A program made the translations under genes and the position numbers. Under the pieces are notes generated by a model. The model saw only the letters and a list, made by a program, of their open reading frames with translations, was not told where the DNA came from and ran no database searches. Of a stretch of 64,000 nucleotides of DNA, positions 31,956 through 60,300 are shown piece after piece. How positions within the stretch are numbered: position 1 is the stretch's first letter; each line of letters begins with the position of its first letter. Source of the DNA: Flaviaesturariibacter aridisoli (GTDB taxonomy: Bacteria; Bacteroidota; Bacteroidia; Chitinophagales; Chitinophagaceae); the NCBI RefSeq assembly GCF_004343705.1, contig NZ_SKFH01000006.1:1-64000 (forward strand). Reading direction: 5' to 3'.

Positions 31956-31963
31956 TTGTGAAG

Positions 31964-31977
31964 TGGCCTCGCCAGGG
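31964..31977. repeat. attL: 14-bp duplication of the tRNA-Arg 3' end
   Basis: GTGGCCTCGCCAGG here is identical to 44297-44310, where it forms the 3' acceptor stem and T-stem strand of an intact tRNA-Arg. Flanking bases differ on both sides. Confidence 0.88.
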
Positions 31978-32245: not shown

Positions 32246-33061
32246 CTATTCCGAAATAACGAAGGTGATAGGTTGTGTTCTGATGGCTTTGACAGGCTTA
32301 CCTTGATACATTGCGGGAATAAATTTCGGAGCAAGGCTCATAACCCTTAGTGCTTCACGCTCTACCCCATAACCTACACTATTTAAGACCTTAACATCAG
32401 TAACATTTCCATCGGTGTCAACAGTAAACTGCACTTTAGCCGTATATGTACCTGGAGGTATGTTTTTATCTAAGCTGTCTACCTTAGGAGTTGTTGCTAA
32501 GAATGTTCTCCATGAAGCAGGATATTTTGTTTCTACATCGAATATGGGTGTTTCGGTTTTTGCAAGTACTTCTGCCTCTGGCGGTATATCAGTTTTTGTA
32601 AGTTCTGCATTGGGGTCGTCTTTTGGACTTGCAGATGCTGTTGTGCGAGCTTGATCTTCGTTAAGTTTCCGTTGGCGAAGGGCTTCCATATAGCGCTTGT
32701 CGTATTTGTAAGCTTGCTCAATGTAGTTAGCCATACGGTTACCCTGATTGTAAGACCCGCATAGATCTGCTAGCTGGTGGCGTAGGAGTTCACCATTGCC
32801 CAAGGTTAGCAAAAGCTGTAAGCAAAGGTTGTCCTGGAACTTGGTATTGTTAGCTACGTTTTCGACTCGTGCAAGTGCATTTGATAGAGAGCCGCCTTCA
32901 TTCAGTGTTTTGCTGACTAATAGGCTTTTCGAAAGTTGACTCAGTTGCCCGGTTTTATAACGGTAGGCAACGCTTTGCCAGAAAGGTTTCATTTGAGGCA
33001 CTTGGCTGGATGCAGTTGTTGCAAGTAGTGTTGCAGCTAGGAGTAGGTAGATAAAGCGCAT
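32246..33061 (-). CDS. TonB C-terminal domain protein (energy-transducer-like)
   Basis: A 271-aa exported protein. The start at 33061 (MRFIYLLLAATLLATTASSQ) gives a signal peptide; the frame is open 19 codons further upstream without one. The middle is helical with several Asn/Gln/Lys residues and resembles a TPR-like or coiled region. The last 85 residues (KVQFTVDTDGNVTDVKVLNS, then ALRVMSLAPKFIPAMYQGKPV and ITFVISE) are the TonB_C fold that contacts outer-membrane receptors. It lacks the classical TonB transmembrane anchor and Pro-rich linker. It is cargo at the left end of the island and its role there is unknown. Confidence 0.75.
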   Translation of the reverse strand: MRFIYLLLAATLLATTASSQVPQMKPFWQSVAYRYKTGQLSQLSKSLLVSKTLNEGGSLSNALARVENVANNTKFQDNLCLQLLLTLGNGELLRHQLADLCGSYNQGNRMANYIEQAYKYDKRYMEALRQRKLNEDQARTTASASPKDDPNAELTKTDIPPEAEVLAKTETPIFDVETKYPASWRTFLATTPKVDSLDKNIPPGTYTAKVQFTVDTDGNVTDVKVLNSVGYGVEREALRVMSLAPKFIPAMYQGKPVKAIRTQPITFVISE

Positions 33062-33377
33062 AAAATAAGGTGTGCTCCCTGCTAACATCCAGTAGAGGCA
33101 CCGCCAAGCGCCTTGCAAGAATGATACGGCAAGAGAGACACACCCGTACGGGTGCGCCTGCTAAGCCGTTCCTTCCTGCTGTGAAAAATTTGGCGGTTTT
33201 CTACTGGCGGAACGTTAGAGTCGCAGCTTTTTTAATATGTTACTGTAGCAAAGTAACGCAAATAGCTTAATAAACCGGTGAGCGACACAATCGGCATTTT
33301 AAGGCTCTTTTGAGGCGTTGGGAGACATGGTCGCACATGGTTCGGCAAAAGTTGCCTTAAGGGCTTAAAAGTGTCAA
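33062..33377. other. Gap between TonB-like and Rep-like genes
   Basis: No gene is recognised. It holds a perfect palindrome CACCCGTACGGGTG (33141-33154) and a hairpin GTTACT/AGTAAC with a 7-nt loop (33239-33257). These lie just downstream of the Rep-like gene and could be a terminator or replication-origin structure. Confidence 0.35.
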
Positions 33378-34316
33378 TTAGATCGCTTGGCTGGCATTTA
33401 TTTGTTGGGCAATGTAGTAGCAAGCAGTAAACGCTACTTTTTGAGCGAGTTCGGTGGCAAACTCACACTCTTCAGATAGATTTACATCACTGTACAACTC
33501 TGTGAGTTTGCTCTTTGTGCGGCTTGCATATACATAGTTCTTTGGCATTTGAGCATTGATGATAGCAAACACATTTTTCAACCCACCGTAAGCCTCAATA
33601 CCCTTTAGTATGAGATGTGCGTACACATCTTTAGGGGATTGTAGGGGGATAGCCGGGAGTTTTAGCGACTCGAATATGATTTTGCTAAATTCTCTTGCCC
33701 AAAGCGCGACCAAGTGGTTTTGAACTTTGCAGGATTGCAAGCTAGCTAGTGTGAAGTCCGGTCGCTGCGGTGAAACATTAAGGTTTAATAGGCGTACCTC
33801 GTAGCGGAGCACCTTAAGGTCAAACGGAATACCTGTATTGACAGTGAGGCTTCCTCTAAAGTGCTCCGTTTTGTTATAGAACCGTAAGTAGATGGTGTCT
33901 TTCATAAACACTCGCTGCTTATTGGTGTGCCCGAAGTATTTGGCATAGCCCTTGGCCATTTCCATAGCTTCCAGATATGTGCTGGGATTGTGGCGTACAG
34001 GTATGTTAAAGCCGAACTCTAATTCACTTATGGGCGTAGAAAGCGGTAAGTTGAGTTCACCAGCTATGGCCTGTATGTTCTGGATATTGGTAACCTTATC
34101 GGCATTGAGCGAATTGTATTCCAAGCCGAACTTAGTAATGCTCCCGGCAATTGTCAGGCTTTTAGCTCTCGCAATGACTCGGAGGTTTGCATAGTTCGCC
34201 GTGAAGCCTGTTGGCGTGTGCTTAACGTTACTTGTTTTAGGGCTATTGAGCACAATGCTGGTTATAGATGCTATTGTCTCATGGTTGGTTATGTTGATCT
34301 TTATTCTGTCTAACAT
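33378..34316 (-). CDS. Replication-initiator-like protein (phage X/RCR Rep type)
   Basis: A 312-aa protein starting MLDRIKINI. It has IYLRFYNKTEHFRGS and VLRYEVRLLN, the Y-K and L-R-x-E-x-R-L pattern seen in rolling-circle initiators of filamentous phages and small Bacteroidota plasmids (Phage_X/Rep families). The N-terminal ELEFGFNIPV...NPSTYL segment also fits that group. A catalytic Tyr cannot be assigned with certainty. It is the last gene of a tight minus-strand set (HTH gene, unknown gene, Rep) with gaps of 1 and 5 bp. If correct, the island can probably replicate after excision. Confidence 0.5.
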   Translation of the reverse strand: MLDRIKINITNHETIASITSIVLNSPKTSNVKHTPTGFTANYANLRVIARAKSLTIAGSITKFGLEYNSLNADKVTNIQNIQAIAGELNLPLSTPISELEFGFNIPVRHNPSTYLEAMEMAKGYAKYFGHTNKQRVFMKDTIYLRFYNKTEHFRGSLTVNTGIPFDLKVLRYEVRLLNLNVSPQRPDFTLASLQSCKVQNHLVALWAREFSKIIFESLKLPAIPLQSPKDVYAHLILKGIEAYGGLKNVFAIINAQMPKNYVYASRTKSKLTELYSDVNLSEECEFATELAQKVAFTACYYIAQQINASQAI

Positions 34317-34321
34317 GGCAC

Positions 34322-34747
34322 TTATTGTAATATTAATTGGTTAATAAAGGGAAACGTGGTGGACGCGCTTTTTCGCAGGTTGCGCAGCTTACTGTCAAAT
34401 GCGCCCGTTTGGACCATTTCAAGTAAGTAAGCGCTATAAGAATTTTTTTCAGGGAATATGAGAATTTCTATGATGCCCAGGTTTGGGGTTATGAGTGCAA
34501 CTCCCGCATCCATGTTTTTAGCGAGATGACATAGGCCGTACCAAGTTGGCCATGCTGTGTGCATTGTTATGGTGGTGCTGTTTACAGCAAGGGCAGCGGT
34601 AAACGTTATCTGTGTTAGTGTTTTCAAGTCGACGTCTTTCTCAAACGGGGCGTACTTGCCAAATGAAAACTTTCTAGAATAATGTCGCTTATTGTCATCG
34701 TCCTCTGCAAAGACGTAGTAGAGGGGGGTAGTTAGCTTGGCCTTCAT
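34322..34747 (-). CDS. Hypothetical island protein
   Basis: A 141-aa soluble protein of unknown family. It starts MKAKLTTPLYYVFAEDDDNK, has a central hydrophobic stretch (TQITFTAALAVNSTTITMHT) too polar for a firm membrane call, and a basic C-terminus (LRNLRKSASTTF). It is tightly packed between the excisionase-like HTH gene (1-bp gap) and the Rep-like gene (5-bp gap), so it probably works with replication or excision of the element. Confidence 0.6.
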   Translation of the reverse strand: MKAKLTTPLYYVFAEDDDNKRHYSRKFSFGKYAPFEKDVDLKTLTQITFTAALAVNSTTITMHTAWPTWYGLCHLAKNMDAGVALITPNLGIIEILIFPEKNSYSAYLLEMVQTGAFDSKLRNLRKSASTTFPFINQLILQ

Positions 34748-34748
34748 G

Positions 34749-35030
34749 TCATTTGCCTTTTAGTGATTTGCTTTTTATGCTTTGATCGAGTTCTTGTTTG
34801 TTATAACGGATTTGCCTCCCAACTGGGTAAGCCGTAAGCTTATACCCCTTGGTTAGCTTTCGGAGCGTTGGTTTGGAAACGCCTAGGTATTTACAAGCCT
34901 CGTCGAATGTTAGCCATTCCTCGCCCTTTTGTTCTTGGACGGCTTTTAGCGTTTCAAAGGCTTTGTTTATGGCCTTAGTTATGAGGTTCGTGAGTTCTGG
35001 CTCAGTGATCAGCATTAATCTTTCCTGCAT
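34749..35030 (-). CDS. Helix-turn-helix protein, excisionase-like
   Basis: A 93-aa DNA-binding protein. The C-terminal half, EEWLTFDEACKYLGVSKPTLRKL, then LTAYPVGRQIRYNKQEL, is the MerR-like winged HTH_17 fold found in excisionases and element-encoded regulators. An N-terminal helix (ELTNLITKAINKAFETLKAV) may mediate dimerisation. It is the first gene of the minus-strand replication set and is transcribed divergently from the XRE gene. Confidence 0.8.
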   Translation of the reverse strand: MQERLMLITEPELTNLITKAINKAFETLKAVQEQKGEEWLTFDEACKYLGVSKPTLRKLTKGYKLTAYPVGRQIRYNKQELDQSIKSKSLKGK

Positions 35031-35565: not shown

Positions 35566-35608
35566 CTGTTTCTGAGCGCCGAAAAATGCATTTATTAAAT
35601 GCTTGCTT

Positions 35609-36076
35609 ATGACGTTAAATGAAGTAAAAAACTTAATTGCACCCTATGTAGTAAAATCAACAGTTTGCCGCATCCAATATTCTAGCTTAGAAAGAGATCT
35701 ATCGGGTGCGTGCTATAATGAAATGATAAGACGTAGCATAGAGGCCAAGCTATATGGAATCTACTTGTGGACTGTTCCAGATGGCAGAATTGTCTATTGT
35801 GGCAAGGCTGGAACTGTTAAAAACGATGGTACATATGGTAAGCATGCTCTTTGCAACCGTTTAGTCGCTTCAAGGGGAAAAGATAAGACAACTAAGATTG
35901 ACGAGTCAACATTCAAATTCATGTTCCGATTCATGCATTTACAGAAAATTGAATTTTTAGATTTGCATGTCTTTTACACTAAAGATGAAGTGCCGCCAGC
36001 TTATGTCGAAAGTATGGTGCTGTTTAATTATTTGAAAGCCAATTCTAGGTTGCCGACCCTGAATAAATCATTTTAG
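35609..36076 (+). CDS. GIY-YIG nuclease-fold protein
   Basis: A 155-aa protein; the ATG at 35609 is preferred over a TTG two codons earlier. The fold is indicated by YGIYLW (GIY at 50-52), IVYCGKAG (62-68, the YIG-equivalent strand), an Arg at 84 in CNRLVA, and Glu134 in AYVESMVLFNYLK, the metal ligand. It ends LPTLNKSF, a common finish in small GIY-YIG proteins. All catalytic positions appear kept. It could be a restriction-type nuclease acting with the island's methyltransferase operon, a homing/repair nuclease, or a separate defence gene. It shares a plus-strand operon with the XRE regulator. Confidence 0.65.
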   Translation: MTLNEVKNLIAPYVVKSTVCRIQYSSLERDLSGACYNEMIRRSIEAKLYGIYLWTVPDGRIVYCGKAGTVKNDGTYGKHALCNRLVASRGKDKTTKIDESTFKFMFRFMHLQKIEFLDLHVFYTKDEVPPAYVESMVLFNYLKANSRLPTLNKSF

Positions 36077-36094
36077 GACGTTACACAATAACAT

Positions 36095-36364
36095 ATGAAA
36101 CATATACTGGTGTTAGATCATAAAACGAAACGCTTTACGAAGTTTATACACTTAAGGGAAATTACAGAGATGCACATAACAAAGAATATAAACAAAATGA
36201 TAGATGCTGGTTATAGTGTCTCAATTTCAGATGCTAACCCTGGTGGTCCACAATTTGAGCTAATAAAACAAGGGTGGGTAGAAGATGATGGGGCTTATGA
36301 TCGTCTCATTCTTGATTATAATCAGATTAACAATCCTCCGCTTAGTCGTTGGAAAAATAGCTAG
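36095..36364 (+). CDS. Hypothetical small protein
   Basis: An 89-aa acidic-tailed protein starting MKHILVLDHKTKRFTKFIHL, with no recognised domain. It follows the GIY-YIG gene by 18 bp and may be co-transcribed with it, for example as a specificity or inhibitory partner. It is followed by a bidirectional terminator. Confidence 0.6.
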   Translation: MKHILVLDHKTKRFTKFIHLREITEMHITKNINKMIDAGYSVSISDANPGGPQFELIKQGWVEDDGAYDRLILDYNQINNPPLSRWKNS

Positions 36365-36530: not shown

Positions 36531-38438
36531 TCAGTTCAGCCTTGGTGGTCGTGTTTGAGTTGTAATTTCCTGAGCCACAACTTTATTTTCCTCCTTCTTT
36601 TTTACAATAGTAGCGCCAGAAGCAGCTTGTGCAGGAACAGCCTTTGTCTCACCGGCTGCAAAATCATGTAGCTCGGCTGTCCTTGACAAGTGTTGTGTAT
36701 ATTTTTCTAATAGTGTTTTAGCACCCGTCCCTTTGTAATGTTTAACGCGTGTAATTCCAAAGTTTAGCGTAGTTAGATTATCGTTTTTTATTATGGGGAG
36801 TACTAACGGATTAGATGCAACAATAACAGCTTTAGGGAAAAACTCGTCCAAAATTACCGTTTGGTGGTCTTTAGGTAAGCTTGAAATCATTTCCTTCACT
36901 GAGAGTATTTTCTTTCGCAATTCGTCGAGCTGAGCAGAAAGGAATCCGAAACGGGTTTCCCAGCAGCTAGATAAGTAAGAAACATCTATTTTAGGTTCAC
37001 CAAAGTGGATAACTGCTTCGCCCTTTTCATTGAAAACGCATAGATCTAATACATCTATATCAACTATCAAGTAAGAGTTGAAATGCACCAACCCAAATTT
37101 GTTAGTGCCGTTTTCGAAATATTCTAAAAGATGTTGGTCTTTAGCCTTTGCCAGATCGGGCTGCTTCTTTTTGTTATAATCGAGTTCTTCAATGCGTAGC
37201 AGAGTGGCAACTTTTGCGTTTCTAATCCCCTTCTTTTTGCCCATTCCGCGAATCATCATATCACAAGGTTGGGCTACGAGAATGTATTTGGTCTGATCGA
37301 TTTGGAAGATGTCACCATTTTCTAACGGTTTCCGGAGCTTATTGATAATATCCCCAGAATCATAAATTTCAGCGTGCCTTATTAAGAGTTTATCTGAGTA
37401 AGGCTGCATGGTACTTGGAATATCAAATTGAATATCGGCAAACGGTTCTGCGTACTTTAATTGTTCATTGATAATCGGAACATAGTCATTTTTGGTCATT
37501 CGCTCTTTGAGTTTGTTCTCAAACTCTATGTCAGCAATTCTAATAATAGTTTCGGGTACCCATACACCTTCTCTTAAAGAAGTTTGCAAAATTGTCTGGT
37601 CAAAGTCATAGGTATCGAAGGAGTCAACACGTTTAGCTGCATCTTCATAGCTTGCCTTAATTAGTGCTTTCGTGTGTTGTTTAATTGTCTCAAAATATTT
37701 GTTTAAAAGAGTCTTCTTAATCCCGTCTGCGAAAACTTCCGGGTTGTCTAACCTTTCCTTTGCCAAGGGAAAAAAGTCGTTTACTTGGAGGTTTATTTCA
37801 GGATTTTCCTCAATAAGACTGTCCCTAAATCCTAATTCCTCTCTTGCAGATGAGATTTTATGTGTTAGTAATGAGCAAATGACTTTGTTATTAGCCGCAG
37901 ACTGTTTTACTTGAGCAATTAAGTTGTGACCTTTTGTAGATTGATATTTTATCCCTGCGTGCGATAAGTCTTCATCAAAAAGCACAAGCGCCATTTCGCC
38001 GTCTGCAATAAGTTCATTGAGTTTAGTTTTTTCTGTGTCCCATTGTTGAGGGGACATAATCTTGACAATTCCACCAGGAAGTTGTTCTTGTACACGTTTT
38101 GCTCTTTCAAAGTCAAGTTTGATTTCCTCCCCACCTGATATTTTCAAGATTTCTACATAAATCTCTTTTTTCTTTTCAAATGGTAGGGTCTGCCATTCGC
38201 TTGAAAACTGACTAATAACTCCTTCTTTTGGCATATCCCAATCCGCGCCATCGAAATTTATCGCTTGTAACGCATCTTGTTTGTTGAAGCCGTATATCTT
38301 TTCTATTTCGCCAGATATTACTTGGAAATCGATGTCCGAGAGATTGTTCTCGTCGTCAACATAATAAACGCTAGTTATGTTCAATAAAGCAAGTAAATCC
38401 TGCAGTCTGTCAACAGTTGGTTTTTGGTCGTTAGGCAT
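36531..38438 (-). CDS. Receiver-like protein, third gene of the methyltransferase-ATPase operon
   Basis: A 635-aa soluble protein. Residues about 20-240 look like a response-regulator receiver with a long insertion: VYYVDDE (acidic Asp28/Asp29), LVLFDEDLS (Asp155 or Asp157 in the phospho-acceptor strand), SLLTHK (Thr192) and FPLAKERL (Lys227). The C-terminal half has a GDIFQIDQTKYILVAQPCDMMIR segment, a QPCD motif seen in uncharacterised partners of GHKL ATPases, and no recognised nuclease or HTH. It starts 2 bp after the ATPase gene ends. By inference it accepts phosphate or binds the ATPase-kinase and acts as output or control of the system. Confidence 0.65.
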   Translation of the reverse strand: MPNDQKPTVDRLQDLLALLNITSVYYVDDENNLSDIDFQVISGEIEKIYGFNKQDALQAINFDGADWDMPKEGVISQFSSEWQTLPFEKKKEIYVEILKISGGEEIKLDFERAKRVQEQLPGGIVKIMSPQQWDTEKTKLNELIADGEMALVLFDEDLSHAGIKYQSTKGHNLIAQVKQSAANNKVICSLLTHKISSAREELGFRDSLIEENPEINLQVNDFFPLAKERLDNPEVFADGIKKTLLNKYFETIKQHTKALIKASYEDAAKRVDSFDTYDFDQTILQTSLREGVWVPETIIRIADIEFENKLKERMTKNDYVPIINEQLKYAEPFADIQFDIPSTMQPYSDKLLIRHAEIYDSGDIINKLRKPLENGDIFQIDQTKYILVAQPCDMMIRGMGKKKGIRNAKVATLLRIEELDYNKKKQPDLAKAKDQHLLEYFENGTNKFGLVHFNSYLIVDIDVLDLCVFNEKGEAVIHFGEPKIDVSYLSSCWETRFGFLSAQLDELRKKILSVKEMISSLPKDHQTVILDEFFPKAVIVASNPLVLPIIKNDNLTTLNFGITRVKHYKGTGAKTLLEKYTQHLSRTAELHDFAAGETKAVPAQAASGATIVKKKEENKVVAQEITTQTRPPRLN

Positions 38439-38440
38439 GA

Positions 38441-40948
38441 TTAAACAAGTATAGATGAAAAGTTTATCTGGAATTTGAATTGCCGGTTATGTTCATTGCG
38501 ATCTTCTAAAAGATACACTTCACTAGAAACAGTATCAAGCAACTGCTGTACAATGAACAACCCTAAACCCCGGCCTTGACTTCTTGGTTTTCCCGTTACA
38601 AAAGGCTGAAAAACCCTTTTTGCTAATTCAGGGTCTATGCCAGGCCCATTGTCATAAATAACTAAAAACGGATTGTTCAGTTCAATACTTATGGTCGGCT
38701 CAAAACCTTTATTAGTTCGCATTCTGTCTTTAAGCCAATATTCAGAGTTTAGTACGATGTTGTCTATTATTTGGGTTAGTTTGCCTCTACTCATCCTTAT
38801 TACGAACCCTGATTTCGAATAGTTGATCTTGAGTTTAATCTGATTGCCGAAACGATCTTGATAGTATGACCCAAGCTCTTCGATAAACGAGTTCAAGTTT
38901 ATGTCATGCTTCGTTTCACGAACAAATTTCAACGAAGGAGCGAGGTGGCTTAGTTGTTTTCGTAAAGATTGAATCGCATTTTTGACGTATTCGATGTAGA
39001 CGAATACGGAAGAAGTATCAACAATTTCTTTCCCCTTGATTTTCTTTTGTACTGTATTAGTTTGGTCAAGTAATCTATCAACAATATGGGAAATTTCATG
39101 TGATAATGCTTCGGCAGTTAATCCCAGGCCGGCGAGTTCCGCAAATTCTGTAAGTTGACTTTCCAGATCCTCCACTTTGGGCTTAATATAATTGGCATCT
39201 TGTTCGAGCTTTTTTGCGATCTCTAGAATTGAGTCAACTTTGATTAATACTTCCATTGCTCGTTGCAGCGCGTCATCAATTTCTAACAGCAAATCTCTTT
39301 GACGTTGTTCATTTTCATCTTTAGCCTTTGTTTGTTTAGAGTGATTGACCGTTTGTCGAACGACTTGCGCAACCCTAGCTAAAACCGGGGTTAGTTTATG
39401 GGTTTGGTCTTGTAAGTCTTTAGCTTGGCTTGATGTATTTTTTATTCTTGCGAAAGAATCGCGTATGTCGGTTATTCCTCCCGAGCTTTTGGCAATTTGC
39501 TTTCGGTATTCTGAATAACTTCTTCTTGTCTTCTCCAATAAGTCGTTGATTTGATCTACTATTTTTGTCATCAACAAGAAAAAGTTTTGAGAATATGGAG
39601 ATTCCATAAAACCTTCTCTGTCGGTTTTTTCTCTGAGGTACTTGTTTTTGTCTGCACTCAAAGAAATAAAGCCAATAACATTGCTAGGTTTTAGGCCATA
39701 ATAAGACCCGCCAGATGTCCATGATCCACCAAGCTTTAGCCAATCCTGCCCATCAATGCCAAATGGTTTGATGCCAAACCCATCGCGGAAAACACGAATG
39801 CCTTTCTGATTCTTTACTAGGGTTTTGAATTGAGAAAAGTCGTCAAAAACAGAGTCTAGCGAATCATTTTCTCGTAAGTTGAAATCATCAATTTCGCCGA
39901 AGAAATCCCCTGGGTCCGCTAATTCTTCGTTGCCATTTATCATAGTTAATGCTCGTTTCGGCAAGTTTGCCAGATCAAAGCTTTTCTTAAAAGTATAAAG
40001 TACGCCATTGGTCCCTTTATACTCTAAGCCATCAAGGAAGAACGCCCGGTTTTCTTCCTTATTTGTAAGAAATCTGAAAAAGCTTTTTCCTTGGTCTTCC
40101 GCAACTAAGTTTTGGTAAACAGCTCGATCATCGGCTGGGTTATTGCCCCCGAAGAGCTTATACATTTTTACACTTCCGGAGATAGTAAGTTTTCCAGAAG
40201 CATATTCTACCTTATAACGCGACACGGCTTGGCTCCTAAGTGCTTCGCCTATTTCATCCAAGTCAATTTTTTCACCATTAATGGTTAGGTAAACATGAAA
40301 TGTTCTCTTTTGCTTAAAAGGAAAAATTAACTGAGATAGTTGCCCCTTAACTCTGTCCGCAAGTTTGCCTTCCCATAAATTAGGATCTTTCAAACAACGT
40401 ATAACTAACTTAGTTCCTTTAGGTTGGAAACGTTTCTCGATGTTATTGAAATAAGTTGGTACGCTTGTTAGTGCCACATCTTCTGTAAAATCGTCCCAAT
40501 TGAAAGCAATATGGTGGATGTGGTTTTCTTCGACTCTACTTGTGAGCATTTCCAGTTTGTTGCCTAATCGCTGGGTACTCAATCTTCCCAAACCTTTGTC
40601 TCCAAGCGGAGTTCTGTCGCATGGAGTCTTAAGGCCTTGCTCCTTCAATTGCCTCTTGTGCGATAATGAAATAACTAGCCAGCCATTCTTTATCTCATCT
40701 TCATTCATTCCAAAGCCGCCATCTTCAATTATAATATAGCCTTTGTCGTTTACGTATCGAAATGGTTCCTCTGACAATTTGCCCCGCGTGTCAATTTCAA
40801 TCCTTACCCAATTTGAGCAAGCATCGTAGGAGTTTTTTACTAACTCCATAATTGCAGTCACCTCATCTGTAACTAATTCCTCGCCTAGTTGTTTCACAAC
40901 AGCGGCGCTGATGTCAAAGTGGGCTGAAGTGTTTATTTTAGTTTCCAA
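38441..40948 (-). CDS. Dual GHKL ATPase with histidine-kinase-like C-terminus
   Basis: An 835-aa soluble protein. Residues 1-250 form an Hsp90/MutL/MORC-type ATPase: Glu35 and Asn39 in MELVKNSYDA, DGGFGMN (76-82) and LGDKGLGR (115-122). A transducer-like region holds IRVFRDGFGIKPFG (384-397). A coiled coil spans about 470-600. Residues 612-660 resemble a histidine-kinase DHp with an H-box (ALSHEISH, His617). The end is a second Bergerat fold: Asn730/Asn734 in IIDNIVLNSEYW, DNGPG (766-770) and GRGLGL (792-797). Its start overlaps the methyltransferase gene by 11 bp and the receiver-like gene follows after 2 bp. The product looks like a DNA-responsive ATPase combined with a kinase. Confidence 0.75.
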   Translation of the reverse strand: METKINTSAHFDISAAVVKQLGEELVTDEVTAIMELVKNSYDACSNWVRIEIDTRGKLSEEPFRYVNDKGYIIIEDGGFGMNEDEIKNGWLVISLSHKRQLKEQGLKTPCDRTPLGDKGLGRLSTQRLGNKLEMLTSRVEENHIHHIAFNWDDFTEDVALTSVPTYFNNIEKRFQPKGTKLVIRCLKDPNLWEGKLADRVKGQLSQLIFPFKQKRTFHVYLTINGEKIDLDEIGEALRSQAVSRYKVEYASGKLTISGSVKMYKLFGGNNPADDRAVYQNLVAEDQGKSFFRFLTNKEENRAFFLDGLEYKGTNGVLYTFKKSFDLANLPKRALTMINGNEELADPGDFFGEIDDFNLRENDSLDSVFDDFSQFKTLVKNQKGIRVFRDGFGIKPFGIDGQDWLKLGGSWTSGGSYYGLKPSNVIGFISLSADKNKYLREKTDREGFMESPYSQNFFLLMTKIVDQINDLLEKTRRSYSEYRKQIAKSSGGITDIRDSFARIKNTSSQAKDLQDQTHKLTPVLARVAQVVRQTVNHSKQTKAKDENEQRQRDLLLEIDDALQRAMEVLIKVDSILEIAKKLEQDANYIKPKVEDLESQLTEFAELAGLGLTAEALSHEISHIVDRLLDQTNTVQKKIKGKEIVDTSSVFVYIEYVKNAIQSLRKQLSHLAPSLKFVRETKHDINLNSFIEELGSYYQDRFGNQIKLKINYSKSGFVIRMSRGKLTQIIDNIVLNSEYWLKDRMRTNKGFEPTISIELNNPFLVIYDNGPGIDPELAKRVFQPFVTGKPRSQGRGLGLFIVQQLLDTVSSEVYLLEDRNEHNRQFKFQINFSSILV

Positions 40949-42350
40949 TTTTCCTAAATATTAATATGTCTTCGTAGCTCATCAATTCAGCGTCCTTGTT
41001 ACGATAAGCCATCCTCTTGTTTAAAATCTCTCTTTCGATTCTTGTTACGACAATTGCACCCTTACTTACAATGAGTTCTTCAATTATTCTATCATTGGGA
41101 ATTTCAATGCCGCCTACGTTTCTGTTTCCAACCGTCCAAATTTGGTAGGAATCAAGTTTAAGGGAGTCATGTATATTCTGGATAGATAGTGATAGGTCAT
41201 AGATAAAGCTTACGACCTTTTTCAATTTGTCGGGAGATTTAGATTCTAATGAGCGATAAGTAGCATAAAACGATGGTGAACACCTAAACAATTCTTGTAG
41301 TTGTTTTTCATCTAAGGTTTGCAGCTTGCCGCCAAGCCCTCGGCTATCAATTTCGGATGTTGTCCTCAAAAAGTCACTGGTTGCTAATTCATGAATGTCA
41401 GACAAGTCAATCCATTGTAGCGGTAGATACGAATGCTGGCCGTACGTAACAGTGGTTTTATTATCTCCATAGGGAGGCGACGTTACGAGCAAATCAAAAT
41501 AATTAGATTGGTTGTTAGGGGTGTAGACCTTTGTTTTGCTATCTAAAAGGCGTAAGCTTACCTCTCCCAGGTAGGCGCCTTTAGAAAGTTTGTTTGCGTT
41601 TGTCAAGAGATTGGAATACCAAAGAAGGTCTTTTAAGCAAGATTCGAAATGTTCTTTGAATAGATTGATCGATGATAAGCTTCGTTTTTGTATTTCGTCT
41701 GCAGGCCGAGTATGTAGTTTATAGGTCGATGTGCGATCATTTGAATTGATTCTAACTACTTCGGCAAGGATAACCCAATAGAAACGTCGAATTGCCGGTC
41801 GCTTTTCTTTTCGAATTGCCCTGACTATTTTCGATAGTTCAACTGCCGTAGAGTGCTTAAACCATTTGTGCAAGCCGGTAAAGTTCGCTTCAATATTTTC
41901 TGATTGATCGTTTTCAATTGAGTTAAATAAATCTGACTTCCTTTCTTCAATTGCCTTTACGTAAAAAGGGCCGGTTCTTGTTCTAGTTACCAATACAGCT
42001 AACGGATTAATATCCTGACCAAAGCAATCGAGTCCATTTTCCATGCATGCAACCAACGATGTCCCTGAACCCATATACGGGTCCAATACATTCGAAATCC
42101 CTGGCTTGCAATTGATGATTATTTCGATCAGCTTTTTTTGGACGACAGGGACCATCATTGCAGGATACTGGAAAAAACAGTGTAAATACTCCTTTCTATC
42201 ATGATCTGGCGATGACCAGAAATTGTTATCAGTTTGTGTTAATGCGCTAATTTCTTCAGCTATCAACAAATCGATTTCTTGCGGCAATAAAGCTCGTACA
42301 TTACCAGGTGCATCCCTTTCCCTAACAGGCTCATTAGCAATTGGTTCCAT
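40938..42350 (-). CDS. DNA methyltransferase (SPPY type), first gene of island operon
   Basis: A 470-aa amino-methyltransferase. The AdoMet motif I is VLDPYMGSGTSL (Asp90 to Gly96), followed by LDCFGQDINPLA (motif II region). The catalytic motif IV is TSPPYGD (290-296). The 190 residues between them would hold the target-recognition region, as in alpha-type enzymes. SPPY suggests N4-cytosine rather than N6-adenine methylation, which is inference. No type II nuclease is adjacent. It leads a three-gene operon overlapping the ATPase gene by 11 bp. It could mark self DNA for the ATPase-receiver pair, or be an effector. Confidence 0.8.
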   Translation of the reverse strand: MEPIANEPVRERDAPGNVRALLPQEIDLLIAEEISALTQTDNNFWSSPDHDRKEYLHCFFQYPAMMVPVVQKKLIEIIINCKPGISNVLDPYMGSGTSLVACMENGLDCFGQDINPLAVLVTRTRTGPFYVKAIEERKSDLFNSIENDQSENIEANFTGLHKWFKHSTAVELSKIVRAIRKEKRPAIRRFYWVILAEVVRINSNDRTSTYKLHTRPADEIQKRSLSSINLFKEHFESCLKDLLWYSNLLTNANKLSKGAYLGEVSLRLLDSKTKVYTPNNQSNYFDLLVTSPPYGDNKTTVTYGQHSYLPLQWIDLSDIHELATSDFLRTTSEIDSRGLGGKLQTLDEKQLQELFRCSPSFYATYRSLESKSPDKLKKVVSFIYDLSLSIQNIHDSLKLDSYQIWTVGNRNVGGIEIPNDRIIEELIVSKGAIVVTRIEREILNKRMAYRNKDAELMSYEDILIFRKIGN

Positions 42351-42586: not shown

Positions 42587-43909
42587 TTAAGCAGCTTTTT
42601 GGTCTGTTTTACTCTCTTCCTTTCTCTTAGCTAAGTAATCTGCGAGTTTGTTGTGTACCTCTTCGCGCGTAATTTTTACATATTTAAGCAACGTATCCTC
42701 TTTAGTATGTGCTGTAAAGCGCATTACATCATGTGTTGTAAACTCTCCTGTTTTGATGAGGTTGGTAGCAAAAGACCTGCGGCCTACATGGCAGGTTAAA
42801 AGCTGCCACTTCTCGAACTGCTTTGTTACTTTCTTATCCCCGATGGTCCGGCGCTTGGCGACTTTCACTTTAAGCGATTCGACCTTTTGCCCGAGTTCCT
42901 TGAGGTACGTGTTTAGCTTTTGATTTGATATGGCGGGAGGAAACGAGTTGTTGTATTTTGCCATGATCTGGTGTAACACTGGATCGATAGGGATTTTGAC
43001 AGGCTCCCCGGTTTTTTGGGTTTCGATTTCGATCCGGCCGTCAACCACATTGTTTTCAACTGTAAGTCTTACCACATCGGCGTAGCGCAGGCCTGTATAA
43101 CATGAAATAAGGAACAGGTCCCTCGCTTTGTCGAGTTTGGGGTTGTTGACTAAGTCGAGCTCAGCTAGGGCATCAATCTCTTCCCAATTTAGGTATATGC
43201 TATCTGCTGTTTCACTAGGGGCTGTAAAGTCGTGGTGCTTAAACTTCGTGTATTTGTTGATGCCAGCTTCGGTTGCGGCGTTTAGGAATCGTTTGAGCGT
43301 TTTCAGCGACTTTCCAACTGAGTTTAGGCAAAGGCCACGGTTTGCTACTAGGTAGTCCATGTAGCGGCTCCGGAAGTCAATATCGATTTCTGCAAAGTTT
43401 ACCCGATGGCCTGTGTCCTTGATATAGTCCTCAATGTGCTTTAGGGTGGTTTTGTATTTCTGGATTGTTGGGTAAGCCAGCGATTTACCGGTCTTTGCGT
43501 TTTTGCGCCCCTTTGCTTGTTCAATAAACTGTTTGATATAGGGGATAAAGTCGCGTACCGGTCCCGATTTGCGGTCCAAAGCGATATCCAAGAGGTCTTT
43601 TAGTTTGTTTGGACTAGGTATTTCGCCGTTGTTATCGTTTTTGTACTGGGTGTACACTTCACCTGCTATGTGCTTTATTTTTTCCAACGACCGGTTAAAC
43701 TCAGAGAAGTCGGCGGTGCTTTTTGCACGTTGATACCCCTTCTTGGATTTATCGCCCTGCCAGTGCTTAGGGTGAATGCGTTCGTTGGTAGGGTAAATGA
43801 GCTTTTGATTGCAGTAGCGGATAACCATGTTTACCGGTGTGTCTGTGGTACTTTGCGTGTCCCGAAGGTTGAAATTTACATTTAAGGTTGTTCTTGCCAT
43901 TGGGTTCAA
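42587..43909 (-). CDS. Tyrosine recombinase (integrase) of the island
   Basis: A 440-aa phage-type site-specific recombinase. It has an N-terminal arm/SAM-like domain (about 1-230) with the N-terminal LNVNFNLRD common in Bacteroidota transposon integrases. The catalytic domain has Arg275 in CYTGLRYADVVRL, Lys299 in TQKTGEPVKIP, His374 and Arg377 in CHVGRRSFATNL, His401 in TAHTKEDT and the nucleophile Tyr410 in LLKYVKIT. All catalytic residues are present. An ATG three codons in (43900) is an alternative start. Its position next to tRNA-Arg, with matching att repeats, makes it the enzyme that inserted this element. Confidence 0.93.
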   Translation of the reverse strand: MNPMARTTLNVNFNLRDTQSTTDTPVNMVIRYCNQKLIYPTNERIHPKHWQGDKSKKGYQRAKSTADFSEFNRSLEKIKHIAGEVYTQYKNDNNGEIPSPNKLKDLLDIALDRKSGPVRDFIPYIKQFIEQAKGRKNAKTGKSLAYPTIQKYKTTLKHIEDYIKDTGHRVNFAEIDIDFRSRYMDYLVANRGLCLNSVGKSLKTLKRFLNAATEAGINKYTKFKHHDFTAPSETADSIYLNWEEIDALAELDLVNNPKLDKARDLFLISCYTGLRYADVVRLTVENNVVDGRIEIETQKTGEPVKIPIDPVLHQIMAKYNNSFPPAISNQKLNTYLKELGQKVESLKVKVAKRRTIGDKKVTKQFEKWQLLTCHVGRRSFATNLIKTGEFTTHDVMRFTAHTKEDTLLKYVKITREEVHNKLADYLAKRKEESKTDQKAA

Positions 43910-44296: not shown

Positions 44297-44310
44297 GTGG
44301 CCTCGCCAGG
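44297..44310. repeat. attR inside the tRNA-Arg 3' end
   Basis: GTGGCCTCGCCAGG is the second copy of the 14-bp repeat also found at 31964-31977. It covers the T-stem 3' strand, the acceptor 3' strand and the discriminator base. Confidence 0.88.
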
Positions 44311-44369
44311 AATCGAACCTGGATCTGGAGCTTCGGAAACTCTTATACTATCCATTGTACTACGAGGCC
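44298..44369 (-). tRNA. tRNA-Arg (anticodon CCG)
   Basis: A 72-nt cloverleaf. The acceptor stem is GGCCTCG/CGAGGCC, the D stem GTAC/GTAT, the anticodon loop TTCCGAA with anticodon CCG, and the T arm CCAGG-TTCGATT-CCTGG, with discriminator A. CCA is not encoded. The anticodon stem has one mismatch at its base (A-C). The 3' end is the integration site of the island on its left. Confidence 0.93.
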
Positions 44370-54268: not shown

Positions 54269-54336
54269 ATTTCACACACATCTTTTCGTCATCGTCATCC
54301 CGGTCGCCTGCAACAGGGACCATGCGACCGGAACCT

Positions 54337-57300
54337 TTACTCTTTCACCAGCCGGATCGTCTGCTTGCTTCCTTCGGCATCCACGATCGTCACAAAGTAC
54401 ACACCCGCGGCGCGGCTGTCCATCGGGACGGTCAGCGTTTGAGTGCCGGCGCTGACGCGCGCCGTTTGCTGCCACAGGCTGCGGCCGGCGGCATCGAAGA
54501 GGGCGAGCTGCACGGTGCCGGACGTGCCGGCGGCCAGTTGCAGCGCCGCGTTGCCGCGCACCGGGTTCGTGGTAAACGTAGCCGTGCCTGCCGCGGCATT
54601 ACTGCCGTCCGTGAGGCGGATGATCGAAGTATACGCGCTGCGGCCGTCGAGGTCGGTCTGCTTGATGCGGTAGTACAGCGTGCCCTGTGCATTACGGCGC
54701 GTGTAGCGGTAGTGCTGCCCGGCGGTGCTGTTGCCCGCGCCGGCAACCTGCGCGATCGCCGTGAAGCTGCGGCCGTCGGTGCTTTCTTCTACTGTAAAGC
54801 CCGCGTTGTTGCTTTCGGTGGCGGTGCCCCACTGCAGTTCGTCGTTCGACGCGCGGCGCTCGCCACTGAAGGAAGTCCAGGTAACGGGGAGCACGGCGTT
54901 GAGCATCCGCACCGAGAAGGGCGAGAAGCTCGTGAAGCCGCTACGCGATACGCTGTAAGGATTGGAGCCGGCGGCCATGAGGGCGCTCGTGCCATAGTCC
55001 CAGGCGCCGCCGGTATGGTGCGCCAGGCGGCAGCTGTTGCGGGCGAAGCTCGGGAGCTCCAGGGCCGCGGGCCACTGCACCTGCACGGTGGCGTTGAGGT
55101 TGCCAGGCGTTGCCTCGGAGATCATCCAGGTGGCGTTGACGGCATAGCTCGAAAGGGCGCCGCCCGTGCTGCCGTTGATCTGCGCGGTCGGGAGGAGGCG
55201 CACCGAGATGTTGTCGGCCAGCGAGCCGCTGTTGAGGGTCACCGTGGCGGGCAGGTAAGCGCCCTCCGTACCCACGGCGAAGGTCTTGCCCGCGCCGGCA
55301 GCGATCGGCAGGGTGAAGGCACCCGCGCCGGTGGCCACCACGTAGTTCGTGGCGCTGCTCGTATAGTTGCCGCTGCTGATGGCCAGGTTGTAGTCGCCGA
55401 GCGTCAGCTTGCCGCTCGTAAGCGCCAGCGAGCCGCTGAGGGCCACGTGGCTGCCGAGGCTGAGGCCGAGGGCGTTGTTGAGCGTCACCACGTTGAGCGT
55501 GGAGGCGGCCGCCAGGTGCTGCGCCTGCACGCCGTTGAACAGCAGCGTGGTGCCGGTGGCGGTAAATACGCCGGGGCTCGTTTGCGTGAAGTCGCCGCCG
55601 ATGCTGTGCGTAAAGGCGCCGCCGGTGAAGGTGCCCCCGCTGATGGTGAAGTGCTTCAGCACGGTGAGCGCGGCGGAGGTGGTCTTCGTGCCGGCGCTGA
55701 TTTCCACCGAGCCGTACACGATCGAAGGCGTGAAGGCCTGCGCGGCGCCGTTGTATTCGACGATGCTGAAGGAGTCCAGCGCGTATTGCGTGAACGCGGG
55801 GATGGCGCTCGTGCCGCCAATGCGGAGGCGGGCGTTGTTCTCGATGGTGAGCGTGTTGACGGCACCCGCGGTGGCGTCCTGCGCCAGGGTCAGCGCGCCG
55901 ATGTCGAGCGTGCCCGAGGTGATGTTGAGGTCGGCTACGCCGGCAACGTTCTTCTGCAGCGTCAGCGTGTTGCCGCTGCTTTTTTCCACGTCGAAGTCGG
56001 CCAGCGTGAGCGTGGCGGCGGCGCCCGTGAGGTTGCCGTTGATCGCGCCGTTGAAGGTGACGCCGGCGAGGGTGGCGTCGATCGTGCCGTTCATCGTCAG
56101 GTCGTGCATGACGTTGAACTCCGAGTTGACCGTGAGGGCCGCGCCCGTGTTCACCGTAGCGTTGTAGAAGTTGGTGGCCGACGAGCCCGAGATCTGGGCC
56201 GTCGGCGACGTGAAGAGGAAGGTGGACGTGCCGCCGTTGAGTGTGCCGTCGGATTCCATGTCGCCGGCCAGTGTATAGGTATAGGAGCCGGCATTCAACA
56301 CGCCGTTCGCGGAGATGGAGAAGGTGCCGCCGATGTTGCTCCAGTTGGCCGCCGGTGTCACGGCGTTGGAATTGGCGATGGTCACGTTGTTGAGCGCGCC
56401 GGGCGTGCCGGTGACGCTGAGGGCGCCCGTGCCGCCGAAGGTGACGGTGCCGGTGCTGCTGAAATAGTTGGTGCCCGTGTTGGCGCCGAGGTAGGCGGTC
56501 TTCGCCGAGGAGGGGCTGAACAGCATCGTGCCGGGGCCGGTTACGATCCCGTTGTTGCTGAAGCTGCCCGCGATGGTATGGGTGGAGGAGCCCGTGTTGA
56601 AGGTGGCGCCTGCATTCACATTAAAGGCCACGAGCACTTTCCAGTCCACGCTGGGCGTGATACCGCCCGTGTTGTTGATGTTGAGGGTAGCGAAGGTGGG
56701 CGTGCTGGTGGAGTTGAGCACCGGCGCTACCGTGCCGTTGAAGTTCACCACGCCGGTCGACGTGTTCACCAGCGCGTTGATCAGCGAGATGGTCTGCACC
56801 TGCGTGCCCATGAACGTCGTAACGCCGCTGCCGGTGATGGAGCCGCTGTTGTAGAAGTCGCCGTAGATGATGTTGGTGTTGGGGCCTGCGGCATAAGTAG
56901 CCCCGGTCAGCACGCGCAACGATTGCAGTGTGATGTCGGCACTGGAGAGCGAGTAGGAGCCGTACACCGTCAGCTTGTTGAAGGTGGTGTTGCCCGTGAT
57001 GGTCTTGCCGGTGCCCATGGCCAGCACGGCGCCCGTTGCCGGGGCGAAGGTGCCGCTGTTGGTCCAGTTGCCGTAGAGCGACAGGTTGTGGACCGATCCG
57101 TCGAGGGTGGCGCCGGAGGCGATGCTGAGGTTGCCCTGCACGGTGGTGGGGCCGGCCAGCGTTTTGGTGCCGCTGCCCGACAGCGCCAGGTGGCCGTACG
57201 ATACGCCGGTGACGCTCTGCGCTATGTTGCCGTTGTAGTAGGTGTTGCTCGAAGCACCGAAGGTGTAATAGGTGTAGTTGGCGGGGAAGTTGGCCGCGCC

Positions 57301-60300
57301 GCCCACGTACAGCGCCGCGCCGTCGGCCACCTGCAGGGTGCCGCCGATGGTGTTGCGGGCCGCGCTGAAGGTTTTGAGGTCGAGCGTGCCGGCGGTTACC
57401 AGCAGGTCGCTGTTGAGGGTGATGTTGCCGGCCAGCGTGGCGGTGCCGGAAGGCTTGTCGATCACCAGCTTGTTGAAGGAGGTGGCCGCGATGCTCTGGT
57501 TGCCGCTGCCGTTGAAGGTGGCCACGCCGCCGTTGGGCAGGTAGGTGCCGTTGTTGTACCAGTTGCCGCCGATCTTGATGGAGGTGCGGTTGGTGGCAAA
57601 GGCGGCCGGCTGCACCGTCACGTCGCCGAGGATGGAGGTGGGGCCGGAGAAGTCGAAGGTGCCGGCCTTTACGAGCAGGTTGCCGGTAACGGTGGTGCTG
57701 GCGAGCGGGTTGGTGCTGGCGGTGGCGGCCGTCTTGTCGATCACCAGCTGGTTGTAGGTCACGCCGCCCACCGACTGGAAGGCGCCGCCGTTGTAGGTCA
57801 CGGTGCCGCTGCCGGCGCTGAAGTTCCCGCTGCTGTAGGTGAAGTCGCCGCCGATAGAGAGGTTGCCGGCGCCGTTGAAGGTGATGGCTGCCGCGCCGCT
57901 CTGCGTGAGCGACCCGGTGAGTGTTGCATTGCCGCTGCCGATAACGAGGTTGATGTCGTGGCCGCTGGTGCCGTCGCTGAGCAGGATGTTGCCGCCCACG
58001 GTGAGCGTTTGCGCACCCACGCTGATGCTGTGTGTGGCGTTGGCGCTCCAGCTGCCGCTGATGTTGCCCTGCGTGCTGAGCGGGCCGCCCGAGAGGCTGA
58101 GGGTTACGGGCTGGGCGCTGCCGAGCAGGATGCTCTTGGCGCTGGCCGCGGTATACACTTTGGGCTGGTTGGCCGCGTTGTAGGCCACCACGCCGATCTG
58201 CACGATATCGTTGATCGAGGGCGGGTAGGAGGGGGCGCCCTGCACGTAGGTCCAGTTGGCGGGGTTGCTCCAGTCGTCGCTTGCCGAGCCGTTCCAGTTC
58301 ACCACGTTGGCCGTGGCCGAGAGGGTCCAGGTGCCGCTGATATTGGCGAGCGCCGTTTGCTGCACCCAGTTGTCGGTGGCGTTGCTGGAGGCGGAGCCGG
58401 CGCCGGTCCAGGTGCCGCTATTGAAGCGATAGAGTTGCATGGCCGCTTCGTTGTTGCCGTTCAGCTCACCATCCTCGTAGTGGAGGCGGAGCGTGGCGCT
58501 GCTGTAGCTGCCGGCGGCAAGGCTGACGGCATAGGTGCGGTTGACGGCCGATCCGAAGGGGAAGCCCGATACGGCCGTCTGCGCTACCGTAACAGTCACG
58601 CCGCTGATGCCCGAGGCGCCGGCAAAGGTGAGCTGGTTGTCGGCGCTCTCGAAGGCGTAGGCGGTGCCGGCAACAAGGCCGCCGGCCGGTGTGCGCTCGA
58701 TAGTTCCGAACAGGTGGCTGCCGTTGCTGTAGCTGACGGCGCCGGTGACGGTGATCTTGCTGCTGCCGGTGCGGAGCACGCCGTTGGTCATGTTGAGCGT
58801 CGGCGTGTTCATATTGTTGGCGAGAAACAGCGAGTTGGTGGCGGAGGTCTTGTTCAGCGTCAGCACGTTGAAGGTGGTGGCGCCGGTGATCGTGGCGTCG
58901 GCGCCGCCGCCGAACACGATGCTGCTGCCGGCGGGGCTGAAGGTGCCGTTGTTGGTCCAGTTGCCTTTGACGGTATCGATGAAGGCGCCGGCGGCGAAGG
59001 TGGTGCCGGCGGCGATGGTCAGGTCGGTATTGGTCACGAGGGCGCCGCCGCCGGTCTTGAGGCCGCCGTTGGACAGTGTCAGGTTGTCGTACGTCACGCC
59101 GGCAACGGTCTGCGCGCCGCCGTTGTACACCACGGTGTTGGGGATGGTGGTGGTGGCGTTGAAGGTGCCCGAGCCGGGCGTGAGGGCGCCGGCGATGCCG
59201 AGGCTGGAGTTGGCCGCCAGCTGCAGCTTCGTGGTGCTGACCAGGGCCACGCTATAAAGGTTGGCCGTGCCGTAGAACAGGCAGGTGGCCGATGTATTGG
59301 AGAAGTTGACGGTGCCGGCGGTAGCGGTGAGCGCGCCCGTGACGTCGAGGGTGTTGCTGATCGTAAACGAGGTGGCTGTGCTGAGCGAGCCGGTGGCCGA
59401 CAGGGTGTTGAGGCTGATGGTACCGGAGCCGGAGATCGTTTTGGATGCGCCGCTCATCACCAGGATGCCGCCCATGGTAAAGGAGCCGCTCACGGCCAGG
59501 TTGCCGGTAAGGGTGAAGCCCGCGGCGGCGGTAACGGTGCCGCTGACGGAGAGGTTGTTGAGGCTGATGCCCGAGCCGGAGATCGTTTTGGTCGTACCGC
59601 TCATCGTGAGGGTGCCGCTGCCGTAGGTAAGCACCCCCGAGCCGGTGGTGGACAGGTTGCCCGCTACATTGACGGCCGCCACGCTGGCCGCGATGCTGAT
59701 GCCGGAAGCCACTACGTTGAGGTTATTGAAGTTGAAGGTGCCGCTGCCGCTCACCGTGGAGCCGGAGCCGGTAAGCGTTACGGTGCCGGTGCCGCCGCTG
59801 ATGCTGCCGGCGTTGGCGAGGCCGCCGCCGAGGGTCAGCGTATCGGAAGAACCCGAGAGGGATGTACCGCTGCCGATCGTGCTGCCGTTGCTCACGGTCA
59901 GCTTGCCGGCGGTGGTTACGGCCACGCTGCCCGACGTGGTGAACGCGTTCGATACAACGGTGCCCGCGGGCACCGGCGTGCTGCCGGAGCCGGAGAGGGT
60001 GAGGTTGCCATACGACCTGCCTGAAACAGTCTGGGCGGCGCCGTAGTATTCCACGGTGCTGGTGTAGCCGAGGCTGTAGGTGCTGAAGTTGGCGGGGAAG
60101 TTGGAGGCGCCGCTGAGCATCAGCTTCGTGCCGTTGGCGAGGCTGAAGGTGCCGCCGGAGGCGGGCGGGGAGGCGCTTCGGTTGGCGCTGAGGGCTTTGA
60201 GGTCGAAGATGCCGCCATCCACGTAGATGTTGCCGTAGTTGGGGCTGGCCATATTCATCGAAGTGATCCCGGCCGCCAGGATGCGGGTGCCCGCGCCGCT

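Follow-up and report, generated by a model that had tools for sequence, protein, structure and literature searches.

The first 64,000 nucleotides of contig NZ_SKFH01000006.1 of Flaviaesturariibacter aridisoli (the window) carry three closely spaced genes, which encode a DNA methyltransferase (gene 1), a protein combining a GHKL ATPase clamp with a histidine kinase (gene 2) and a receiver protein (gene 3). Judging by sequence comparison, this trio is a separate clade of an already published kind of kinase-receiver pair, joined to a different methyltransferase, and that clade appears to be the new part. Its architecture, its intact catalytic residues, its conservation as a unit and the kinship of its methyltransferase with enzymes of type II restriction-modification (R-M) are observed here, and we see about an even chance that the trio is a restriction-like defence module in which a phosphorelay takes the place of a dedicated restriction enzyme. 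If so, methylation-based discrimination between self and non-self would be wired to a two-component phosphorelay and not to a nuclease, the phosphorelay would add a delay, an amplification or an off-switch absent from ordinary restriction enzymes, and the bacterial relatives of MORC would gain a testable job as sensors. Eukaryotic kin of MORC silence foreign DNA.

Conservation of the trio and its published relatives

A first-pass annotation of the window described three minus-strand genes joined by an 11-bp overlap and then a 2-bp gap, and the open reading frames (ORFs) are indeed present in this arrangement: genes 1 and 2 share 40938-40948, and only 38439-38440 separates gene 2 from gene 3. 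The nearest relative, in Ilyomonas limi (L008), has identical junctions. A profile of gene 2 matched at least 593 stretches in species genomes, of which 569 were confirmed and 80 loci were kept. We call class 1 the 37 kept loci whose kinase scores at least 526 bits on the A2 profile; the class-1 alignments (A4-A6) leave out L012, which lies on the same contig as L006, and L024, a near copy of L023. The receiver gene lies directly downstream of the kinase gene in all 37 class-1 loci (in one it is cut by the contig end) and a methyltransferase gene adjoins the pair in 36, the exception, L042, starting 52 bp from a contig end; the suggestion that the trio is conserved as a unit was thus borne out. 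The methyltransferase gene is downstream on the other strand in L031, L036 and L040 and downstream on the same strand in L038, which means that the link survives rearrangement. Across 36 loci the three proteins also agree in their pairwise distances (Spearman 0.80-0.84, the best of 999 permutations reaching 0.30-0.38), an agreement that partly mirrors common descent.

Going by record titles, class 1 is found in about ten phyla (Bacteroidota, Pseudomonadota, Actinomycetota, Planctomycetota, Chloroflexota, Bacillota, Myxococcota, Thermodesulfobacteriota, Nanobdellota and Aminicenantes), with single placements that may be binning errors because several of the loci are metagenome-assembled genomes (MAGs). 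Two MAGs labelled Nanoarchaeia (L028, L033) have the trio, through archaeal carriage or binning error, and a small winged-helix-turn-helix-like gene overlaps the start of the methyltransferase gene in both. A tblastn search with gene 3 found relatives in 3 of the 395 phylum genomes sampled, one of the three being the genome of the window itself; the 13 other genomes of its genus and family gave none. Kin of gene 3 are present in 2 of 72,556 plasmid records, whereas 50,697 phage records and the viral contigs searched with gene 3 gave none. The four new gene 3 loci, on a Hymenobacter plasmid, on a Rhizobium etli plasmid and in two genomes, have all three genes in unchanged order; among eight viral-contig loci, L088 is a trio, and in L089 the contig ends after the methyltransferase and kinase. 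Such sparse occurrence, with mobile islands and plasmids as carriers, would also be expected of a selfish linkage in which the methyltransferase and the pair form an addiction module devoid of a protective role. This explanation leaves the phosphorelay unaccounted for and is compatible with the restriction-like reading; on its own we consider it very unlikely.

The first-pass annotation also called the system undescribed, which has to be withdrawn, since the general architecture was published in 2021. In the parts of that paper drawn on here, Bellieny-Rabelo et al. (2021, PMC8011034) describe kinases with HATPase_c_3, an H-box and HATPase_c, an adjoining receiver gene and a methyltransferase nearby. 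The pairs are named 'TCS-like' and treated as kin of paraMORCs, and their linkage is 91.6% in 644 regions, mostly with C5 methyltransferases, HNH_2 and Vsr; an upstream C5 methyltransferase is frequent, not universal, and N6/N4 methyltransferases are named in the legend of Fig. 5. The window pair resembles the HEF_HK (PF19191)/Response_reg_2 (PF19192) pairs in its order of HATPase_c_3, H-box, HATPase_c and then receiver, with the methyltransferase upstream, in the adjacency of kinase and receiver, and in the presence of the core His, Asp pair, Asp, Thr/Ser and Lys. HATPase_c_3 at the N-terminus and HATPase_c at the C-terminus are found in the window kinase and in 36 and 37, respectively, of the 37 class-1 kinases. 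The window trio differs in that its methyltransferase is of the N4/N6 type (N6_N4_Mtase) and not C5, its kinase has 835 amino acids (aa) compared with 966-1001, and its receiver 635 compared with 525-575. PF19191 gives no match at E <= 1 in the window kinase and matches 2 of the 37 class-1 kinases; PF19192 matches neither the window receiver nor any of the 37 class-1 rows.

Strong matches to both PF19191 and PF19192 are found in 8 of the 395 genomes, and in all eight a methyltransferase-like gene of 354-368 aa (assigned by motif) precedes the kinase of 966-1001 aa and the receiver of 525-575 aa; a P-x-C-D motif is seen in three of these published-type receivers. In the kinase tree, a branch with SH-aLRT 100 sets class 1 apart from the rest, and the same holds for the eight published-type kinases; the trees come from quick searches, with SH-aLRT as the sole support measure, and the second leaves out L068, L079 and L094, which have long branches. 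What is new is the separate clade with its different methyltransferase, and not the kind as such, which the portions of the 2021 paper cited above already contain. In open-licence papers we found no later work or phage tests, which is not proof of absence.

Domains and residues of the three proteins

The gene 1 product matches Pfam N6_N4_Mtase over the cut-off and PADLOC MTase_II (E 1.2e-98). Its motifs follow the order DPxxGSGT (residues 90-97), then SPPY (residues 291-294), and SPPY is invariant in the 36 rows of the methyltransferase alignment. SPPY is usually found in N4-cytosine enzymes, and the MvaI and BcnI methyltransferases produce N4-methylcytosine. The class-1 methyltransferase profile finds 30 of the 395 genomes at E <= 1e-20, namely three trios, seven enzymes at 257-309 bits and 20 weaker ones (<= 157 bits). 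Six of these seven nearest non-trio methyltransferases adjoin a restriction enzyme of the MvaI_BcnI family (L157, L158, L160, L161, where it is partial, and L162) and/or of the RE_BsaWI family (L156 and also L157), the proteins of L159 being outside the scan. The class-1 methyltransferase is kin of type II R-M enzymes, and the link to restriction-modification proposed earlier is upheld by these neighbours. The window methyltransferase, in contrast, has no adjoining MvaI_BcnI or RE_BsaWI enzyme in Pfam and is accompanied by the kinase and the receiver. Because its nearest non-trio relatives adjoin restriction enzymes, the kinase-receiver pair sits in the restriction enzyme's place.

The gene 2 product consists of an N-terminal GHKL ATPase clamp, a coiled coil and a histidine-kinase half, with HATPase_c_3 (residues 31-157) and HATPase_c (residues 723-827) over the Pfam cut-off. 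Its AlphaFold2 model (pLDDT 82.8, pTM 0.59) matches the folds of MORC2, TRAP1/Hsp90, SMCHD1, MutL and histidine kinases at E of about 1e-11 to 1e-13, with topoisomerase VI-B likewise among the matches; the structural overlaps with MORC2, SMCHD1 and MutL, which bear on a possible S5-type transducer behind the GHKL domain, are long. The sequence of the second half matches solved histidine kinases, LvrB being the best (E 5.8e-24). The ATPase residues E35, N39 and D76 are present in 36, 35 and 36 of the 37 aligned rows, whereas H617, N730, N734, D766 and G792/794/796 of the kinase half are each present in all 37; G770 is a further residue of this half. The description of this protein as an Hsp90/MutL-like ATPase with a histidine-kinase-like half is therefore supported by domains and fold matches, and Glu35, His617 and SPPY were rightly singled out as key residues.

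Several known systems share a part of this architecture. MORC and paraMORC proteins in R-M neighbourhoods have the N-terminal GHKL clamp, and MORC2 and MutL are among the fold matches of gene 2, but gene 2 ends in a histidine-kinase half, unlike paraMORC1-5, which carry nuclease, TIR or other extensions in the sections of Iyer et al. (2008, PMC2292703) used here. VcSduA, a Shedu protein of the paraMORC3-type GHKL-nuclease kind, stops phages and requires its ATPase glutamate, as stated in the part of PMC12137116 consulted; it offers a precedent for the restriction-like reading and likewise has a GHKL ATPase, but ends in a DUF4263 nuclease, whereas gene 2 has no DUF4263 match in Pfam. The N-terminus of gene 2 (residues 11-242) further matches NCBIfam NF050001, restrict_BbrUII, with E 4.7e-19, so that gene 2 might itself be a restriction enzyme of the BbrUII/HgiDII type with a GHKL module, gene 3 merely controlling it. 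We give this hardly any credence: the match reaches 68.4 bits where the family cut-off is 550 and covers only the N-terminal third of the family, and the remainder of the protein has its matches among histidine kinases, the kinase residues being fully conserved. Two-component logic serves phage defence in Detocs, which is not known to have a methyltransferase or a MORC-like clamp; a PADLOC search of the window proteins gave no Detocs family among the matches listed, and no other Detocs test was made.

For the gene 3 product, Pfam, NCBIfam and PADLOC give no family match above their cut-offs. Its predicted model (pLDDT 84.0, pTM 0.75) together with intact catalytic residues suggests a receiver, in agreement with the receiver-like assignment made earlier. 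In the 37 rows of alignment A4, D28, D155, T/S192 and K227 are invariant and D29 is present in 34. The first-pass annotation had pointed to Asp155 and Asp157; the former is the invariant receiver Asp, whereas the latter is not conserved (V in L004). The L004 homologue (L004:7995-9791, NZ_CP094538.1), from a plasmid of Hymenobacter monticola, bears the annotation 'cytochrome P450', a label that looks mistaken because the protein is homologous to gene 3. A match to cREC_REC in 1 of the 37 receiver rows (E 0.0097) was taken as chance. In the C-terminal domain, D376, C392, R397 and G473 are present in all 37 rows, and R564 and R586 in 36 each, one row being incomplete.

Foldseek compared the gene 3 model with receivers (3cnb, probability 0.87) and with MazF (5hk0, probability 0.97), none of the matches having E <= 0.001; against viral models there was likewise no match at E <= 0.001, and the receiver profile, searched against PDB sequences, found none at E <= 1. 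The MazF-mt3 barrel, despite its probability of 0.97, has E 0.19. A MazF/PemK reading of the C-terminal domain, made by eye and from Foldseek (5hk0, 9ikd and 2mf2, E 0.19-0.85), was rejected, since hhalign against 30 PemK proteins gave 0.2-0.4%, values that lie inside the range of 40 column-shuffled controls or at its upper end, and neither the window protein nor the class-1 rows match PF02452. MazF is thus an unproven fold hint from the predicted model.

Possible mechanism and the executor

Defence, relay and execution are inferred. The methyltransferase would mark host sites, and the GHKL clamp of gene 2 would engage DNA, unmarked or invading DNA shifting its ATP-driven state. This change in the clamp would turn on the kinase half and lead to autophosphorylation at His617, from which the phosphoryl group would pass to Asp155 of the receiver protein. 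Phosphorylation may then free the receiver C-terminal domain, which is probably the executing part and would most likely act on nucleic acid or recruit an effector. A more specific version can be put forward only tentatively: methylation would be read by a MORC-like DNA clamp, which by way of His617 and Asp155 would arm an effector of a new type (the C-terminal domain, with its invariant D376, C392 and R397), and this effector would break down nucleic acid or put the cell out of action. On one and the same chassis, both the methyltransferase (C5, N4/N6 or Eco57I-like) and the executor (the C-terminal domain or an HNH gene) would then be exchangeable.

The other 43 kept loci and six viral ones form class 2, with kinases of about 650-830 aa. 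A same-strand gene directly follows the kinase gene in 47 of these 49 loci, the exceptions being L072 and L084, and HEF_HK matches 3 of 47 class-2 kinases. Among the 43 aligned class-2 receivers, all have the receiver Asp, 40 the Lys and 35 the Cys of the C-terminal motif; Pfam Response_reg matches 15 and Response_reg_2 matches one. Alignment A7 leaves out L059 (cut), L081 (split) and L091 and L095 (copies of L056 and L094), and A8 leaves out the latter two. The neighbour clusters of class 2 include C5-methyltransferase-like genes in 33 loci and Vsr-like genes in 16, both named by eye from sequence. The kinase profiles of the two classes align end to end (hhalign E 2e-107). For the receivers, the alignment of whole profiles reaches 97.1% (E 5.4e-11) and runs on beyond the receiver domain into the P-C-D motif; restricted to the C-terminal domain, it reaches 95.4% (E 1.8e-08, 30 columns). 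Profile comparison thus indicates that the receivers of both classes share the C-terminal domain, which allows concrete questions about it, down to single residues. Seven class-2 loci have receivers shorter than 250 aa, too short for it, and in five of them (L057, L067, L076, L092 and L093) an HNH gene over the Pfam cut-off comes next, which speaks for the restriction-like reading.

A number of observations weigh against the restriction-like reading. No catalytic fold is recognised in the C-terminal domain, given the lack of Foldseek matches at E <= 0.001, and the MazF profile test was negative. The five HNH loci are one branch (SH-aLRT 90), so that the HNH swap is perhaps a single event; the other short-receiver loci are exceptions, L079 having no HNH gene and L081 looking like a split frame. 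An HNH_2 gene lies 86 bp upstream or 215 bp downstream in the class-1 loci L006 and L026, whose receivers do have the C-terminal domain, and the complementarity of domain and HNH gene is for this reason only suggestive. A profile of the five HNH genes and a CxxC/H/CxxC pattern found no further neighbour, and neither detects the HNH_2 genes of L006 and L026. Finally, no neighbour family is present in more than five of 41 class-1 loci, which means that these loci have no nuclease in common and rules out a universal fourth gene.

Alternatively, the nuclease under the control of the pair may be the product of a separate, variable gene, either a neighbouring HNH or other gene, or a host nuclease. 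The HNH_2 genes near L006 and L026, the HNH genes after short receivers and the rank of HNH_2 as the best represented endonuclease in the cited part of the 2021 survey (PMC8011034) all fit this, as would a window gene at 35603-36076 with a weak GIY-YIG match (Pfam E 0.21, below cut-off). However, no such gene is found in more than a few class-1 loci, and the window gene, having no blastp match (E <= 1e-3) among the neighbours of related loci, was set aside as the restriction enzyme; we regard the explanation as distinctly improbable. The missing common nuclease also suits epigenetic signalling in place of defence, the pair sensing the state of DNA or a nucleotide level and controlling transcription or the methyltransferase, with the receiver C-terminal domain binding DNA or a partner. 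Two-component logic usually ends in gene control. A regulatory role tied to R-M is what the 2021 authors propose in the passages cited (PMC8011034). Nevertheless, gene 3 has no recognised DNA-binding domain by Pfam, model or Foldseek, the pair is tightly linked to R-M-type methyltransferases and sister loci have HNH genes, and the trio is carried by a tRNA island and, in two relatives, by plasmids; signalling alone seems to us possible, if unlikely.

Some class-2 loci have other neighbours. In L079 (2846-4342), the receiver without a C-terminal domain is followed by a 282-aa gene, for which a CHAT/caspase-like reading was discarded, being based on His/Cys motifs seen by eye and having no Pfam support. 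In L070 (12035-16251), a 284-aa short receiver is followed by a 1120-aa Eco57I/TaqI-type methyltransferase, so that the chassis seems to take a further type of methyltransferase. In L082 and L083 the gene directly before the kinase encodes a P-loop ATPase of about 540 aa, and in L043 one that is cut to 343 aa; these ATPases are HerA-like by eye only. The neighbours in L049, L064 and L081, a second GHKL protein of about 490-540 aa, a 940-947-aa protein and a 669-795-aa protein, resemble by eye defence genes of the MutL-Z1-AIPR type.

The island and other genes of the window

The trio was said to ride on a tRNA-integrated island, and the surroundings agree with this: G+C is 38-46% in 1-kb bins from 32 to 44 kb, compared with 51-68% in the remaining window, and a tyrosine integrase, a tRNA-Arg and an exact 14-bp repeat of the tRNA end are present (Table 1). 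A Pfam/NCBIfam scan of ten island proteins gave no endonuclease over the cut-off.

Table 1. Positions of the trio, its domains and the island features in the window
Feature	Positions	Strand	Basis or remark
Methyltransferase gene (gene 1)	40938-42350	-	470 aa, ATG start
GHKL ATPase/histidine kinase gene (gene 2)	38441-40948	-	835 aa, TTG start
N-terminal GHKL module, ~residues 1-240	40229-40948	-	NCBIfam match and fold comparison
H-box and kinase ATPase, ~residues 590-835	38444-39181	-	PDB sequence match, fold, residues
Receiver gene (gene 3)	36531-38438	-	635 aa, ATG start
Receiver domain, ~residues 1-235, helical insert ~residues 35-120	37734-38438	-	predicted model and residues
Unclassified C-terminal domain, ~residues 345-596	36651-37406	-	predicted model and residues
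Tyrosine integrase of the island	42587-43909	-	ORF and Pfam
tRNA-Arg (CCG)	44297-44369	-	presumed attachment site
Exact 14-bp copy of the tRNA 3' end (44297-44310)	31963-31976	+	presumed far island end

Two small genes diverge from the trio, the GIY-YIG-like one at 35603-36076 (+) and another at 36095-36364 (+), which has no match of any kind and, like the first, no blastp match among the neighbours of related loci. An excisionase-type helix-turn-helix gene (34749-35030) matches mad1 only as a general protein of that type, and a link to MADS was dismissed. It adjoins two island genes at 33378-34747 (-) coding for 312 and 141 aa, without a Pfam match over cut-off or a PHROGs match. A gene for a TonB C-terminal domain (32246-33118, -) within the island boundary is odd cargo. 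Elsewhere in the window, an ORF of 2227 aa (54337-61020, -), which has no Pfam match at E <= 1e-5, and one of 1900 aa (54322-60024, +) overlap on opposite strands.

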